Below are positions 3-5,146 of a stretch of 5,146 nt of DNA, in pieces; position 1 is the stretch's first letter, and every line of letters begins with the position of its first letter. The stretch is taken from positions 1 through 5,146 of the forward strand of contig CAJWSE010000082.1 in NCBI GenBank assembly GCA_913046275.1, read 5' to 3'. The notes below the pieces were generated by a model. That model did no database searches, had not been told where the DNA came from, and saw nothing but the letters and a program-made list of their open reading frames with translations. The position numbers were made by a program, and so were the translations under genes. Source of the DNA: an uncultured Phycisphaerae bacterium. GTDB taxonomy: Bacteria; Planctomycetota; Phycisphaerae; Phycisphaerales; SM1A02.

Positions 3-479
3 AATCAATCGCCAATCATCCAAGGAGTTAATGATGATTCTGAAAAACTTCGAATCATGCAGCGCGCGCTCAAAAGAATAGGAGCAGACAACCACTATTT
101 CTTCTGTGGACGAGACATTATTGCGCATCGATTTTTTAATATACCAATTGAAACTGCATGGCACACTCTCAACAACTCACAGAAAGGACTCTCAGGAGTT
201 GAATGTCACGCAAGATTATCAATTACTCATTATCTAGGGAAAACTGAAGTTGTCGCAGTTACAGATGAACCCATCCCAGGATTAGCAGGCAGTGAAAACG
301 GTGTATTAATCTTTAAACTGCTTCGAAATGCAGCAGATGCACCGCTACGTGGAAAAGTCTGTATTGTTGGCCGAAATCCAGATGCTATTTGGTTTGACGA
401 TTATGAAGACCGGGTTCTATTCGATGAAGCAGGATTATTTGATTATGCGCGCGTTCGAGAAGTAGTCAATGCGGACTAA
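3..479 (+). CDS. KamA-family radical SAM, PLP-dependent 2,3-aminomutase (3' part only)
   Basis: This is a partial gene: the frame is open to the left edge, so the internal ATG at 57 is not the start and 158 C-terminal residues are visible. The first residues (NQSPIIQGVNDD) match the NQSxLLxGVND segment of lysine 2,3-aminomutase (LAM), and the match continues without gaps through a YFF segment, F-x-x-P and a conserved Ser-Gly. These enzymes move an amino group from C2 to C3 using a [4Fe-4S]-SAM radical and PLP. The CxxxCxxC cluster motif would lie upstream of the window. Lys80 of the visible part (codon 240-242, in LGKTE) aligns with the PLP lysine, Lys337 of clostridial LAM. The lysine side-chain ligands are changed: Asp293 becomes Arg37 (111-113), and the Asp330 position is not acidic. 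The zinc ligand Cys268 is Asp12, and the C-terminal CxCxxC is absent. Alignments are from memory. The substrate is therefore probably not lysine, and an acidic amino acid is more likely. It is the first visible gene of the operon and overlaps the next by 11 bases. Family is fairly sure; substrate is inferred. Confidence 0.8.
   Translation, partial: NQSPIIQGVNDDSEKLRIMQRALKRIGADNHYFFCGRDIIAHRFFNIPIETAWHTLNNSQKGLSGVECHARLSITHYLGKTEVVAVTDEPIPGLAGSENGVLIFKLLRNAADAPLRGKVCIVGRNPDAIWFDDYEDRVLFDEAGLFDYARVREVVNAD
457..462 (+). promoter_or_regulatory. Ribosome binding site of the CoA-transferase alpha gene
   Basis: The purine-rich GAGAAG ends six bases before the ATG at 469 and lies inside the aminomutase coding sequence. 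It supports that ATG as the start even though this makes the two genes overlap by 11 bases. It is a modest match to the Shine-Dalgarno consensus, so translational coupling to the upstream gene probably helps. Confidence 0.5.
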
Positions 480-1179
480 AATAGTTCCGAATGCTCCGAT
501 TGCTCTCGCTGATATCAAAGACGGAGACACAATAATGATTGGCGGCTTCGGTGAAGCTGGAAGCCCAATCGAACTTATTCATGCTCTAATTGACACTGGT
601 GCAACAAATTTAATTGTCATTAACAATAACACTGGCAGTGGCGAAGTAGGACTGGCTGCACTTATAAAAGAACATCGTGTTGCGAAGATGATTTGCTCCT
701 ACCCCAAAACTGCAAACTCTACCGTTTTTCCAAAACTTTACCACGCAGGTGAAATAGAACTCGAACTTGTTCCACAGGGCACGCTCGCAGAACGTATTCG
801 TGCTGGAGGCTCAGGGATTCCTGCATTTTATACCCCCGCTTCAGTTGGCACACCGCTAAGTGATGGCAAAGAAATACGTGAGATCAAGGGTCGTAATTAT
901 GTCCTTGAATATGGTTTGACTGCTGATTTTTCTTTAATCAAAGCAAAAAAAGCCGACATGCACGGCAATCTTTTATACAACAAGACTGCTCGTAATTTTG
1001 CGCCACTAATGGCAATGGCAGGAAAGATCACAATCGTACAAGCTCAAGAAATCGTTGACTTAGGCCAATTAGAGCCAGAAACAATTGTCACACCAGGGAT
1101 ATTTGTCCAAAGGCTAATTCAAATTAGTGCACCTGTTCTAGAATCTACTCTTGTAGCAGATGGGGCGACATACCCATGA
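469..1179 (+). CDS. pcaI: 3-oxoacid/3-oxoadipate CoA-transferase, alpha subunit
   Basis: This is the alpha subunit of a family I CoA-transferase, which with the beta subunit moves CoA from succinyl-CoA onto a 3-oxo acid in the cytoplasm. The 236-residue length is normal. The family signature is complete at residues 18-33 (D-G-x-x-I-M-I-G-G-F-x-x-x-G-x-P). Further hallmarks are GSGEVGLAAL, VPQGTLAERIRAGGSG, the KTARNF segment and TPGIFVQR near the C-terminus. The sequence resembles both PcaI (3-oxoadipate) and ScoA (acetoacetate/succinyl-CoA) proteins; the RAGGSGIPAFYT and LTADF stretches lean towards ScoA, so the alpha chain alone does not settle the substrate. The start overlaps the aminomutase stop by 11 bases and the stop overlaps the beta-subunit start by 4. 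The neighbours suggest that the 3-oxo acid comes from transamination of a beta-amino acid rather than from aromatic ring cleavage. Family assignment is secure; the symbol is given for the closest characterised role. Confidence 0.9.
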   Translation: MRTKIVPNAPIALADIKDGDTIMIGGFGEAGSPIELIHALIDTGATNLIVINNNTGSGEVGLAALIKEHRVAKMICSYPKTANSTVFPKLYHAGEIELELVPQGTLAERIRAGGSGIPAFYTPASVGTPLSDGKEIREIKGRNYVLEYGLTADFSLIKAKKADMHGNLLYNKTARNFAPLMAMAGKITIVQAQEIVDLGQLEPETIVTPGIFVQRLIQISAPVLESTLVADGATYP

Positions 1180-1820
1180 TAGGACGTTCTCGAGAAGAAA
1201 TGGCAAAGCGTTTGGCTCAAGATATAGACGATGGTGCATATGTGAATCTTGGAATTGGTATACCTGAACTTATCGCAAAGTATGTACCAGAAGGCAAGGA
1301 ATTTATCTACCACACGGAAAATGGATTACTTGGCATGGGACCATCACCAGAAGATGGAGAAGGTGATCCTGAATTAATTAATGCCGGCAAAAAACGTGTG
1401 ACTGAACTACCTGGCGCCGCATACTTTCACCATGCAGACAGTTTTTCCATGATTCGTGGCGGGCATCTTGATTTAAGTGTTCTTGGAGCACTTCAAGTTT
1501 CAATGCATGGAGACTTAGCAAATTGGTCTACAGGTAAAGCTGATGCTGTACCTGCAGTTGGAGGAGCAATGGACTTGGTAGCAGGCGTAAAGTCGGTATA
1601 TGTAATCACGCAACACTGTACTAAGAATGGTGCTCCTAAACTCGTTGAAAATTGCACATTTCCACTTACTGGCATTGGTGTTGTAAATAGAATTTACACA
1701 GACCTTGCTGTTATTGAAGTTACTGAGGACGGTTTTCAAGTAATAGAGCTAAGCCCAAATATAACATTTGAATATGTGCAAGAACATACAGGCGCTCTAC
1801 TTCTCAAGCCAAGGAGTTAA
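1176..1820 (+). CDS. pcaJ: 3-oxoacid/3-oxoadipate CoA-transferase, beta subunit (catalytic)
   Basis: This is the catalytic beta subunit, 214 residues, a normal length. The oxyanion-loop motif NLGIGIP is at residues 24-30. The active-site glutamate is Glu48 (codon 1317-1319) in H-T-E-N-G-L-L-G; this Glu carries the glutamyl-CoA thioester intermediate in the family. Thr replaces the commoner Ser in S-E-N-G, which the family tolerates, and Tyr precedes the motif where Leu or Phe is usual. GMGPSP, the FHHADSFSMIRGGHLD segment and the DLANW motif are typical. The C-terminal part (CTFPLTG, then NRIYTDLAVIEV) reads more like PcaJ than like acetoacetate-type ScoB, favouring a dicarboxylic 3-oxo acid such as 3-oxoadipate; this comparison is from memory. 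The ATG lies in an ATGA overlap with the alpha stop, typical of coupled translation and equal subunit dosage. The aminotransferase follows after 5 bases. Confidence 0.92.
   Translation: MIGRSREEMAKRLAQDIDDGAYVNLGIGIPELIAKYVPEGKEFIYHTENGLLGMGPSPEDGEGDPELINAGKKRVTELPGAAYFHHADSFSMIRGGHLDLSVLGALQVSMHGDLANWSTGKADAVPAVGGAMDLVAGVKSVYVITQHCTKNGAPKLVENCTFPLTGIGVVNRIYTDLAVIEVTEDGFQVIELSPNITFEYVQEHTGALLLKPRS
1811..1816 (+). promoter_or_regulatory. Strong ribosome binding site of the aminotransferase gene
   Basis: AAGGAG stands nine bases before the ATG at 1826 and is the best Shine-Dalgarno match in the window. It overlaps the last codons of the CoA-transferase beta gene and fixes the aminotransferase start, which also agrees with the family's N-terminal length. 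Confidence 0.8.
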
Positions 1821-1825
1821 TTTAA

Positions 1826-3118
1826 ATGACACGAAGCGAAGAACTTTACAAAAAAGCACTTCAACTATTACCCGGCGGGGTCAGTCGAAATACTGTTTTA
1901 AGAGATCCATATCCGCCCTATGCAAAGTTTGGCGAAGGATGTCGACTGACAGATATCGAAGGTGTCGCACGCATTGACTTTTCAAACAATATGGCATCAC
2001 TCCTGCACGGACATGCATGTCCAGCCATTGTCAATGCAGTTACCGAACAATTACAACGTGGCTCAGCCTTTACAATGGCTACTGAAATTGAACTTCAATA
2101 TGCCGAATTCTTAATTAATCGCAGTCCCTCTTTTGAGAAACTTCGCTTTGTAAATTCTGGGACAGAAGCAATTATGGCAAGCTTAAAAGCTTCGCGCGCT
2201 TTCACTGGAAAACCAAAAATTGCAAAAGCCGAAGGCGCGTATCATGGGCAGTACGACTACGCTGAAGTAAGTCAAACACCCTCTCCAGACACATGGGGGA
2301 ATATCGATCAGCCAAATAGCGTGCCTGTTGCACACGGAACACCTAATTCTGCACTTGAAGATGTTGTCATTATCCCTTTTAATGACACAAAACGAGCGAT
2401 AGCGCGGCTAGATCTTTACAAAGACGAACTTGCCTGTGTACTTCTAGATTTGATGCCACACCGAGTCGGGCTGAGACCTGCTGAACCAGAATTTGTCGAA
2501 GCTATTCGCGAGTGGACAGACGAAAACGATGTATTACTCGTCATCGATGAAGTCATTACCTTCCGTTCCGAAGTCGGCGGGCTACAACAACAGTACAACA
2601 TAAAGCCAGACATTACTGCGATGGGCAAAGCTATTGGAGGCGGCTTTCCAGTGGGGGCAATTGCAGGTCGTAATGATGTCATGGACGTCATGAATCCTCT
2701 TGCAAATAAAGTGCTATTCCCACACTCTGGAACATTTTCAGCAAATCCAATTACACTTACTGCCGGCTTAACATCGATGAAACTATTTGACGCCTCTGCT
2801 GTTGAAAGGTTGAACAAATTAACAACTCGAGCCATACATGGAATTGAAAAAGCAATTAAAGATACAGGCGCTACTGCTTGCGTTACTGGTGCCGGATCAA
2901 TGTTTCGCATTCACATGAAACCTACGCCACCAAAGAATTTTCGAGAAGCATATATGTCACCTGAAGAAAATGCAAAATTAAAAACTTTGCTTAATCATAT
3001 GTTCGACGAAGGCTTCATCATGATTAATACTTGTTCAGGAGCGCTCTCAACACCAATGGGCGAATCTGAAGTTGATACGCTTGTTGAAGCCGTAAAACAA
3101 GGCTTGCAAAAGATTTAA
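1826..3118 (+). CDS. Class III PLP aminotransferase, GSAM-like; probable beta-amino-acid transaminase
   Basis: This is a 430-residue fold-type I PLP enzyme of the glutamate-1-semialdehyde aminomutase (GSAM/HemL) subgroup. Visible elements are the phosphate loop N-S-G-T-E-A (110-115), Tyr139-His140 next to the cofactor ring, Asp241 of the V-I-D-E-V strand, Lys268 (codon 2627-2629) as the Schiff-base lysine in GKAIGGGFPVGA, and Thr303 in HSGTFSANP. It probably does not make 5-aminolevulinate. The N-terminal substrate loop reads P-G-G-V-S-R (Arg21, codon 1886-1888), as in Variovorax beta-phenylalanine aminotransferase, whose Arg41 binds the substrate carboxylate, rather than HemL's P-G-G-V-N-S-P-V-R. 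HSGTF and the L-M-P strand end also follow the transaminase pattern. Comparisons are from memory. Lying last in an operon with a 2,3-aminomutase and a 3-oxoacid CoA-transferase, it most simply converts a beta-amino acid to a beta-keto acid. Automatic annotation could well call it hemL. Family is sure; reaction is inferred. Confidence 0.87.
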   Translation: MTRSEELYKKALQLLPGGVSRNTVLRDPYPPYAKFGEGCRLTDIEGVARIDFSNNMASLLHGHACPAIVNAVTEQLQRGSAFTMATEIELQYAEFLINRSPSFEKLRFVNSGTEAIMASLKASRAFTGKPKIAKAEGAYHGQYDYAEVSQTPSPDTWGNIDQPNSVPVAHGTPNSALEDVVIIPFNDTKRAIARLDLYKDELACVLLDLMPHRVGLRPAEPEFVEAIREWTDENDVLLVIDEVITFRSEVGGLQQQYNIKPDITAMGKAIGGGFPVGAIAGRNDVMDVMNPLANKVLFPHSGTFSANPITLTAGLTSMKLFDASAVERLNKLTTRAIHGIEKAIKDTGATACVTGAGSMFRIHMKPTPPKNFREAYMSPEENAKLKTLLNHMFDEGFIMINTCSGALSTPMGESEVDTLVEAVKQGLQKI

Positions 3119-3126
3119 CTAGTTAA
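3115..3126. repeat. Perfect 12-bp palindrome holding both convergent stop codons
   Basis: TTAACTAGTTAA reads the same on both strands. It contains the TAA of the aminotransferase (3116-3118) and the TAG of the minus-strand gene (3119-3121), which abut with no spacer, plus a further in-phase TAA stop beyond each on neither strand that is needed. It is AT-rich, has no loop and no adjacent U-tract on either strand, so it does not look like an intrinsic terminator. It may simply be a compact solution for two stops back to back. Confidence 0.6.
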
Positions 3127-4027
3127 TAGATATACCTACTAATATTGCGTCATGATCCGAACCATCAAGCGAATGAAAATTTAATGAGGCCCCCTCAACT
3201 CCACCTCTAACAAAGCAGTGATCAATTGGAATTGCAAACAGCGGGCCAAATGGATCCAACCTCCAACTTGGCAGAATCCCCCTGCCTTTACGAAGATTAA
3301 ACAACCCATTTGTTAAAATAAAATTAGCGTACGCTCTTGACCACATTGTTGTATTCAAATCACCAATAACGACTGCGTCACCACTTCTAGTTTTCAAAAA
3401 TGCACTTATATTCTGCATCTCTTTATCGCGTATCCGACTGCCATGTCGAATACCTGGCCTAATGGGATGAACCGCCACTAAGTCGACATCTTTATTTTCT
3501 ATTCGAACTGTTGTAGCGATTGTCACCATACCAGTTGCACCGTTGACGAACGCCTCTGTGTTTGATATTGGAATTTTACTGTAAAGCAAAAAACCAGAAC
3601 CTGTTTCTAAAGAATGAGAGTAGGTGTTTGGGTAATCAATCTCAAGATTTTCTAATCCTACCTGATGATGATGCATCGATTCTAAAAGCACAAGAAAATC
3701 TGCATCTGTATCTTTTACAAGTTTTTCAATTGCTCCAATATTCGTATTTGTGGCTTTAACATTTACGCACAAAATATGCATTGAAGGGAAGCCTTTATTT
3801 ACATCACCAAAATACCATGGAATCACTTTAGATATACTTGGAATCGAAAACAGAAACACAATAGTCAGCATCAATATCTTTTTTTGAAAAGCAAAGACCA
3901 TCGCTATCAAAGCAAAAATAAATAAATATTGAACTTGAAAATGTACTAGCAAATCAAATTGCGGAATAATGAAAGACCACATGCCAATATTTGCAAAAAT
4001 TGCAAATACACAAGCTGTAATGAACAA
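3119..4027 (-). CDS. Membrane-anchored endonuclease/exonuclease/phosphatase (EEP) family protein, YafD-like
   Basis: As drawn the protein has 302 residues. Three hydrophobic segments at about 2-22, 30-47 and 51-70 are followed by an EEP (DNase I-like) domain at about 82-300. The metal and catalytic residues are all present: Asn89 (VNVKATN), Glu116 (LLES), His187 (VHPIRP), Asp223 and Asn225 (GDLNTT), Asp269 (IPIDH) and the Ser-Asp-His of GSDHD (Asp291, His292). The P-S-W ... F-G-P-L ... I-P-I-D-H stretch is characteristic of YafD-like membrane EEP proteins. The domain probably cleaves a phosphodiester or phosphomonoester; its substrate is unknown, and the side of the membrane it faces cannot be proved here. 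The drawn start is a TTG with no clear ribosome site. The frame stays open 17 more codons to an ATT directly after the typA stop, with AGGAA seven bases upstream (see finding). Same-strand order suggests it is co-transcribed with typA. Confidence 0.82.
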   Translation of the reverse strand: MFITACVFAIFANIGMWSFIIPQFDLLVHFQVQYLFIFALIAMVFAFQKKILMLTIVFLFSIPSISKVIPWYFGDVNKGFPSMHILCVNVKATNTNIGAIEKLVKDTDADFLVLLESMHHHQVGLENLEIDYPNTYSHSLETGSGFLLYSKIPISNTEAFVNGATGMVTIATTVRIENKDVDLVAVHPIRPGIRHGSRIRDKEMQNISAFLKTRSGDAVVIGDLNTTMWSRAYANFILTNGLFNLRKGRGILPSWRLDPFGPLFAIPIDHCFVRGGVEGASLNFHSLDGSDHDAILVGISIN

Positions 4028-4078: not shown

Positions 4079-5146
4079 CTATTTATTCCTACGTGCGATT
4101 TGCTTGCGTTTTGTTTCGCTTAATTCTTTCTTACGTAAACGGATATCACCTGGTGTTATTTCTACAAATTCATCATCCTGTATATATTCTAAAGCGGATT
4201 CAAGTGTGATTTCTCTAGATGCTTTTAAAACTGTCGTAGCCTCTTTATTTGACTCTCTAACGTTAGAGAATGCCTTGCCCTTAATAATGTTTACTTCAAG
4301 ATCATTATCTCTTGAGTTTTCGCCAACAATTTGCCCGCCATAAATAATATCCTGCGGCTCAACGAACAATATACCGCGCTGAGAAATATTCAACATTGAA
4401 TAGGTAGTGGCTTGCCCTGAAGCTGTTGCAATCAATACGCCATTAGATCGACGATACGTTGTAGCACGCACGGGTGCATACTTTTGGAAGCAGTGATACA
4501 TCACTGCTTCACCACCTGTGGCTGTAAGCATGTGACTACGCAAGCCTATTAAACCACGAGCAGGAATTTCGCATTCAATATGCATACGATTACCTCGTTG
4601 CTCGAGTGACTGAACCTCTCCGCCCCTCAATCCAAGAAGTTCCATAGCAGAGCCAACATGCCCTTCATCAACGTCTATCGTGAGCAATTCAATCGGCTCA
4701 CATTTCACACCATCAATCTCTTTTTCAATTACTTGCGGCCTTCCAACAGTTAACTCATAACCTTCACGACGCATATTCTCAAGCAAAATGCCTAAGTGCA
4801 AAAGACCGCGGCCAGATACTTTGAACTCCTCCGATGTATCGCCTGGCTCTACTCGAAGTGCCAGATTGCTTCTAAGTTCACGCTGAAGACGCTCGTCAAT
4901 CTGGCGAGAAGTCACGTATTGACCAGTGGTACCTGCATTAGGCGAATCATTGACGCGAAACAACATATGCAAGGTCGGTTCATCTACTGCAATTCTTGCA
5001 ATTGGATTTGGTTGATCTGGGCATGCAATTGTATCTCCGATCTCAAAATCTCCAATACCTTCTACGGCACATAAATCACCCACTGAAACAAGTTCAGCGG
5101 GCGTTTTACCTAAATCTTTAAATCTGGTCCTACCGTAAAACATTGT
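4079..5146 (-). CDS. typA: Ribosome-associated translational GTPase TypA/BipA (C-terminal part)
   Basis: Partial: the frame runs off the right edge, so 355 C-terminal residues are visible of a protein that is usually about 600. The GTPase domain and its G1-G5 motifs lie outside the window. Visible in order are the end of the beta-barrel domain II (to about residue 48), an EF-G-like domain III (ARIAVDEPTLHMLF onwards), the TypA hallmark SGRGLLHLGILLENMRREGY, an EF-G domain V-like region around PIELLTIDVDEGHVG and GLIGLR, and the TypA-specific C-terminal domain (YGGQIVGENSRDNDLEVN, then LEYIQDDEFVEITPGDIRLRKK). TypA binds the ribosome at the EF-G site and supports 50S assembly and growth under stress or cold. 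The segment after GLIGLR reads TATGGEAVM instead of the TxTRGxGxM common in proteobacteria, a lineage variant. It is a housekeeping gene unrelated to the operon on the other strand. Identity is secure. Confidence 0.96.
   Translation of the reverse strand, partial: TMFYGRTRFKDLGKTPAELVSVGDLCAVEGIGDFEIGDTIACPDQPNPIARIAVDEPTLHMLFRVNDSPNAGTTGQYVTSRQIDERLQRELRSNLALRVEPGDTSEEFKVSGRGLLHLGILLENMRREGYELTVGRPQVIEKEIDGVKCEPIELLTIDVDEGHVGSAMELLGLRGGEVQSLEQRGNRMHIECEIPARGLIGLRSHMLTATGGEAVMYHCFQKYAPVRATTYRRSNGVLIATASGQATTYSMLNISQRGILFVEPQDIIYGGQIVGENSRDNDLEVNIIKGKAFSNVRESNKEATTVLKASREITLESALEYIQDDEFVEITPGDIRLRKKELSETKRKQIARRNK

Follow-up and report, generated by a model that had tools for sequence, protein, structure and literature searches.

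A conserved operon predicted to degrade 2-aminoadipate through 3-aminoadipate in a Phycisphaerae bacterium and in other phyla

We analysed a stretch of 5,146 nucleotides from an uncultured Phycisphaerae bacterium (contig CAJWSE010000082.1 of GenBank assembly GCA_913046275.1; the whole stretch is hereafter the window), in which four open reading frames (ORFs) at positions 3-3118 (+) form one tight operon: a truncated gene of the KamA family of 2,3-aminomutases, a pair of 3-oxoacid coenzyme A (CoA)-transferase genes and a gene for a class III aminotransferase. Comparison with related loci makes it probable that this operon degrades 2-aminoadipate through 3-aminoadipate to 3-oxoadipyl-CoA. It is also likely, though slightly less so, that the operon is part of a complete, widespread and undescribed lysine pathway, which would rely on a 2-aminoadipate 2,3-aminomutase present in two distant KamA subfamilies and would be free of decarboxylation and probably independent of oxygen. 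A previous interpretation made from the letters of the window (the sequence-only reading) had proposed a general course from an alpha-amino acid to a beta-amino acid, a beta-keto acid and finally a beta-ketoacyl-CoA; this course is supported by the co-occurrence of the genes in other genomes, by the CxxxCxxC motif of the full-length aminomutase and by an adjacent thiolase gene. 2-Aminoadipate had been one of its candidate substrates, and the choice is now narrowed to this compound by residues of the aminomutase, by the type of thiolase and by feeder genes.

In the proposed route, lysine would be converted via 2-aminoadipate, 3-aminoadipate and 3-oxoadipyl-CoA to succinyl-CoA and acetyl-CoA. 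L-2-Aminoadipate would be supplied by three upstream routes, those of lysine 6-transaminase, saccharopine and pipecolate, each of which ends in it. The KamA-type enzyme, using a 4Fe-4S cluster, S-adenosylmethionine (SAM) and pyridoxal 5'-phosphate (PLP), would shift the amino group from C2 to C3, giving 3-aminoadipate, and the class III aminotransferase would hand this group to a 2-oxo acid, leaving 3-oxoadipate. A PcaIJ-type CoA-transferase would then draw CoA from succinyl-CoA to form 3-oxoadipyl-CoA, which a PcaF/PaaJ-type thiolase, encoded next to the operon in most relatives, would cleave into acetyl-CoA and succinyl-CoA; the latter would replace the succinyl-CoA spent in the preceding step.

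The four ORFs overlap by 11 and 4 bases and are then separated by a 5-base gap, which proved exact on re-checking, and the families first assigned to them were borne out. The first ORF (3-479, +) encodes the C-terminal 158 residues of the predicted 2-aminoadipate 2,3-aminomutase, a radical-SAM protein of the subfamily that we call KamA1. Taken alone, this fragment reached only 20 bits. A profile comparison matched it to lysine 2,3-aminomutases, and a phmmer search with it against the PDB returned a single match with an expectation value (E) of 0.52. The full fragment is 98.1% identical to residues 317-474 of a 474-residue database protein (P0167), which carries CSSHCRFC; the lack of a CxxxCxxC motif from the full-length enzyme had been named as a reason to abandon the sequence-only reading. 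The predicted fold of KamA1 matches lysine 2,3-aminomutase (2A5H) in a model built from 65 sequences, with a predicted local distance difference test score (pLDDT) of 79.6; this model replaced an earlier one from 8 sequences (pLDDT 49.1). CoA-transferase subunits A (469-1179, +; PcaI/ScoA-type) and B (1176-1820, +; PcaJ/ScoB-type) scored 330.0 bits against TIGR02429 (cut-off 128.5) and 300.8 bits against TIGR02428 (cut-off 243.55), respectively, these curated models not separating 3-oxoadipate from acetoacetate. Reading of the codons placed the Glu of the subunit B ENG motif, which we take to be catalytic, at 1317-1319 (+). The class III aminotransferase (1826-3118, +; PF00202, E = 1e-52) is a predicted 3-aminoadipate or 3-aminoadipyl-CoA transaminase, and its Lys268 (codon 2627-2629, +), presumably the PLP lysine, is conserved in all 19 of the family members aligned.

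Co-occurrence of the four genes in other genomes was confirmed by comparing gene neighbourhoods at 32 related loci (L001-L029, L033, L039 and L049), chosen among 80 listed matches for an aminotransferase at least 55% identical to that of the window; more relatives exist. Judged by record title, these loci span nine phyla, Planctomycetota, Acidobacteriota, Pseudomonadota (Alpha- and Gammaproteobacteria), Actinomycetota, Desulfuromonadales, Verrucomicrobiota, Sumerlaeota, Bacteroidota and Cloacimonadota, one record being titled just 'bacterium'; most are metagenome-assembled genomes (MAGs), and single titles may be wrong. Seven contigs, of up to 46,088 bases, carry identical copies of the window's aminotransferase, and some of the next matches are named Phycisphaerales. 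Named strains among the 32 loci include Maribellus sediminis Y2-1-60 (L019) and Ancylomarina euxinus M1P (L026). The nearest among the matches listed is L001, from the Phycisphaerae isolate SI073_bin8, with an 85% identical aminotransferase; its genome, G001, stands in for that of the window. Both CoA-transferase genes lie upstream of the aminotransferase gene at 30 of the 32 loci, the exceptions (L002 and L027) having the aminotransferase at most 300 bases from a contig edge. Directly upstream on the same strand, 27 loci have a KamA gene, which belongs either to KamA1 (13 loci) or to a second subfamily, KamA2 (14 loci); the two are about 25% identical, occupy the same operon slot and never share one of the 32 loci. 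The place of the KamA gene lies beyond the available sequence in L008, L002 and L027. The other 48 listed loci have aminotransferases of 32-44% identity, and at the three whose context was looked at (L030-L032, 43-44%) none of the other operon genes was found. A gene for an RpiR-family regulator was seen divergent from KamA1 in L001 (535-1380, -), as in L004, L005, L007, L011 and L013, and a LysR-type regulator lies upstream instead in L006, L012, L014 and L033 (GcvA-like in L033).

The residues of the aminomutase were compared with those of lysine 2,3-aminomutase, equivalences being taken from sequence alignment. In that enzyme, Asp293 and Asp330 are assumed here to hold the side-chain amine of lysine, and Lys337 is presumably the PLP lysine. 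All 65 KamA1 and KamA2 sequences have Arg at the place of Asp293 (R353 of P0167; codon 111-113, + in the window). The place of Asp330, counted from the conserved Lys, is taken by Ser in 55 of 55 KamA1 sequences (S389 of P0167; codon 219-221, +) and by Thr (7) or Ser (3) in the 10 KamA2 sequences, and a Lys equivalent to Lys337 is present in 65 of 65 (K396 of P0167; codon 240-242, +). The exchange of both Asp residues for Arg and Ser/Thr argues against lysine and for a substrate with an acidic side chain. The operon enzyme shares with lysine 2,3-aminomutase (KamA/AblA) and glutamate 2,3-aminomutase the fold, the use of PLP, the radical-SAM motif CxxxCxxC, the PLP Lys and an Arg two residues past the third Cys. 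It differs from them at the Asp293 and Asp330 places and falls far below both family cut-offs, the L001 homologue scoring 76.7 bits against TIGR03820 (lysine 2,3-aminomutase; cut-off 525.4) and 81.6 bits against TIGR04368 (glutamate 2,3-aminomutase; cut-off 650).

A thiolase that would take the beta-ketoacyl-CoA, as the sequence-only reading had envisaged, was found next to the operon: a PcaF-like gene is adjacent at 22 of the 32 loci, on the same strand in 17 and convergent in 5. The cut-off of TIGR02430 (3-oxoadipyl-CoA thiolase, PcaF; 597 bits) was exceeded in 19 of the 32 operon genomes and in none of 14 control genomes, and at E ≤ 1e-140 the counts were 26 of 32 versus 2 of 14. Seven further operon genomes gave 548-576 bits, and in six there was no match at E ≤ 1e-140. 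The G001 thiolase (L132, 6079-7290), at 548 bits below the cut-off, sits amid genes that by eye resemble those of phenylacetate degradation and so may serve both routes. PcaIJ and PcaF/PaaJ close the beta-ketoadipate and phenylacetate pathways, via 3-oxoadipate and 3-oxoadipyl-CoA; the proposed route would share with these endings both enzyme types and both intermediates, but its carbon would come from an amino acid, by way of an aminomutase and a transaminase, and not from an aromatic ring.

Neighbouring genes for piperideine-6-carboxylate, pipecolate and saccharopine steps point to 2-aminoadipate as the substrate. Piperideine-6-carboxylate dehydrogenase (NF050084) was over its cut-off in 21 of the 32 operon genomes; another five gave 564-722 bits, with a partial match in two of them. 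Five loci (L010, L012, L019, L029 and L033) have the dehydrogenase gene no more than about 10 kb from the operon, against 0.19 expected from one gene per 3.3 Mb (p ~1e-6, uncorrected for the kin pairs L012/L033 and L019/L029), and in genome G124 it adjoins the aminotransferase gene. Among 246 Planctomycetota genomes drawn for comparison, all 8 with the aminotransferase also had the dehydrogenase, as compared with 103 overall (p = 0.0008, or 0.002 when the seed genome G001 is left out, kinship uncorrected); these counts, like those for Bacteroidota given below, are lower bounds, with at most 5 to 7 candidates scored per genome. L012 has a pipecolate-oxidase-like gene near the operon (458.6 bits to AmaA, under the cut-off of 600), and L019 and L029 have saccharopine-reductase-like genes there. 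In the Cloacimonadota genome G295, seven genes run along one strand, spaced by -10 to 39 bases. The first two encode saccharopine reductase and lysine-ketoglutarate reductase, whose best PDB matches are 1E5L (E = 1.2e-92) and the alpha-aminoadipic semialdehyde synthase 8E8U (E = 1e-77), respectively; KamA2, CoA-transferase A and B, the aminotransferase and PcaF follow. All seven recur in that order in G022, where an additional ORF of 680 residues separates lysine-ketoglutarate reductase from KamA2. Lysine 6-transaminase was over its cut-off in 6 of the 32 operon genomes, and in G029 its gene lies beside that of the dehydrogenase, away from the operon. In G001, which is among the six and has the dehydrogenase over its cut-off as well, these two enzymes, the operon and the thiolase, all on separate contigs, would make up the whole route. 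G001 also has a second PcaJ/ScoB-type CoA-transferase subunit gene (L131, 7519-8223), divergent from the dehydrogenase gene.

Several observations weigh against the route through 2-aminoadipate. The window holds only one third of the aminomutase and no thiolase gene, no thiolase is adjacent at 10 of the 32 loci, and the convergent thiolases (L002, L003, L009, L011 and L027) score 554-576 bits, below the cut-off of 597. L024 lacks a KamA gene on its 12.4-kb contig, and in L049 that gene is on the opposite strand. The dehydrogenase is distant or absent in 6 of the 32 operon genomes (G013, G015, G016, G019, G020 and G022) and is common anyway, also occurring in 153 of 296 Bacteroidota genomes, so that finding both together says little by itself; for Bacteroidota the comparison is uninformative (2 of 2 genomes, one of them the seed, p = 0.27). 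G022 gave no NF050084 match at E ≤ 0.001 despite having both reductases, which leaves semialdehyde oxidation there unexplained; the search for the dehydrogenase did not cover G295.

The nearest solved relative of the aminotransferase is StoTA (6K8H), an omega-transaminase of Sphaerobacter thermophilus (44% identity over 424 residues). StoTA is reported to act on several beta-amino acids in their free form (PMC10589169), as the window enzyme may do; R26 of the latter, invariant in its family, is a Ser in StoTA. More distant is Kat, the 3-aminobutyryl-CoA aminotransferase of a variant lysine fermentation. Kat reportedly was first annotated as HemL, works beside the AtoA/AtoD CoA-transferase and acts on CoA thioesters only, and the known Kat proteins (CLOAM0809-type) share about 65% identity among themselves (PMC3149608). 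The two middle steps of the route could be reversed, in which case 3-aminoadipyl-CoA would be the transaminase substrate, and the gene order, with the CoA-transferase ahead of the aminotransferase, would suit CoA transfer first. Because the nearest relative acts on beta-amino acids and the CoA-ester-specific Kat is more distant, we lean towards an order in which free 3-aminoadipate is transaminated first and CoA is transferred afterwards.

Kat resembles the window enzyme in being a class III beta-aminotransferase partnered by a 3-oxoacid CoA-transferase and a thiolase, and, the aminomutase being of the KamA family, L-lysine has to be weighed as the substrate: beta-lysine would be transaminated at C3 and cleaved by thiolysis into acetyl-CoA and 4-aminobutyryl-CoA, or the operon would belong to a lysine fermentation with a Kat-type enzyme. 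We consider this very unlikely, as both lysine-binding Asp residues are replaced in KamA1 and KamA2, and the aminotransferase is 26-27% identical to the Kat candidates, so identified by context, of four out of six Cloacimonadota genomes carrying lysine 2,3-aminomutase (in all six, the best shorter stretches reach 29-34%). Among 78 Cloacimonadota genomes, an aminotransferase of the window type (E ≤ 1e-90) occurs in 2, as against 43 with lysine 2,3-aminomutase over its cut-off. The thiolase is of another type than that of Kat, and no match to lysine 5,6-aminomutase was found in 30 of the 32 operon genomes, the genome of L026 being one that has it. The identification of the aminotransferase as Kat was rejected, since Cloacimonadota with lysine 2,3-aminomutase carry that different protein next to a thiolase. 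By eye, the gene of the likely true Kat could be seen to adjoin those of a thiolase and CTP synthase at five of six Cloacimonadota loci (L119-L122 and L124), these neighbours not being discernible in L123. An acidic substrate might also be L-glutamate, giving 3-aminoglutarate (beta-glutamate) either as an osmolyte or on the way, by oxidation, to 3-oxoglutaryl-CoA and then, by thiolysis, to acetyl-CoA and malonyl-CoA. The Arg at the Asp293 place would suit glutamate too, and known glutamate 2,3-aminomutases form a family related to KamA, but the TIGR04368 cut-off lies far above the score of the L001 homologue, the adjoining thiolase is of the 3-oxoadipyl-CoA type, and the feeder genes near the operon have 2-aminoadipate semialdehyde or piperideine-6-carboxylate, and not glutamate, as their product or substrate. 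An osmolyte would, moreover, need neither CoA-transferase nor thiolase, and we regard glutamate as an improbable substrate.

The sequence-only reading had also raised the possibility that the aminotransferase is the organism's HemL, serving tetrapyrrole synthesis, in which case its place in the operon would be incidental. The model hemL (TIGR00713) is indeed its best NCBIfam match, yet at 321.3 bits against a cut-off of 527.3, and HemL chains rank lower than the beta-transaminase StoTA among its solved relatives. A better HemL match, of 521-647 bits, exists elsewhere in 12 of the 32 operon genomes; nine of these matches exceed the cut-off, and one contains an in-frame stop. No HemL of at least 520 bits was found in the remaining 20 genomes, whose completeness was not given; these include G001, a 1.9-Mb MAG, in which the operon copy is the sole match to the HemL model at E ≤ 1e-60. 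The concern was thus eased by score and by the second copies elsewhere and stands for G001 as far as the sole match goes; by its score a haem function is unlikely there, and for the aminotransferase in general we hold it to be highly improbable. G007, the genome of L008, has three HemL-like aminotransferases (331-348 bits), so the operon type may be multiplied in it.

The route through 3-aminoadipate would share its starting compound and feeder enzymes with the known course of 2-aminoadipate in the saccharopine and pipecolate pathways. There, 2-oxoadipate is formed and leads to glutaryl-CoA or is processed via HglS; the proposed route would involve neither 2-oxoadipate nor decarboxylation and would yield succinyl-CoA and acetyl-CoA. 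A literature search in PMC, which leaves most subscription journals outside, found no account of 3-aminoadipate as a metabolite and no 'aminoadipate aminomutase'; it gave no match joining planctomycetes, aminomutase and oxoadipate, nor did any of the listed titles concern such a route. In PMC9854754, beta-aminoadipic acid occurs once, in a cited title on lysine 6-aminotransferase, seemingly as a misprint for the alpha form, and the one other match for 3-aminoadipate, going by its listing, is a meteorite study. The route is apparently undescribed and would join known enzyme families in a new way, with an aminomutase specificity that is likewise predicted to be new.

The remainder of the window has no evident tie to the operon. 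A gene for an endonuclease/exonuclease/phosphatase-family protein, with an N-terminal part that is hydrophobic by eye, lies at 3119-4027 (-), its stop codon abutting the operon end; a similar gene is found in L001 (7773-8717), farther from the operon. It is followed by the C-terminal part of a TypA/BipA translational GTPase gene (4079-5146, -), which runs off the window.

If the proposed route is true, lysine degradation gains a branch joined directly to 3-oxoadipyl-CoA, and some planctomycetes, Bacteroidota, Desulfuromonadales and Cloacimonadota would use lysine with neither 2-oxoadipate dehydrogenase nor glutaryl-CoA dehydrogenase. It would also explain a gene cluster whose members are named lysine 2,3-aminomutase, glutamate-1-semialdehyde aminomutase or hypothetical protein in the source databases. 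The route predicts a new aminomutase specificity and would caution against reading these genes as evidence of lysine fermentation or haem synthesis.

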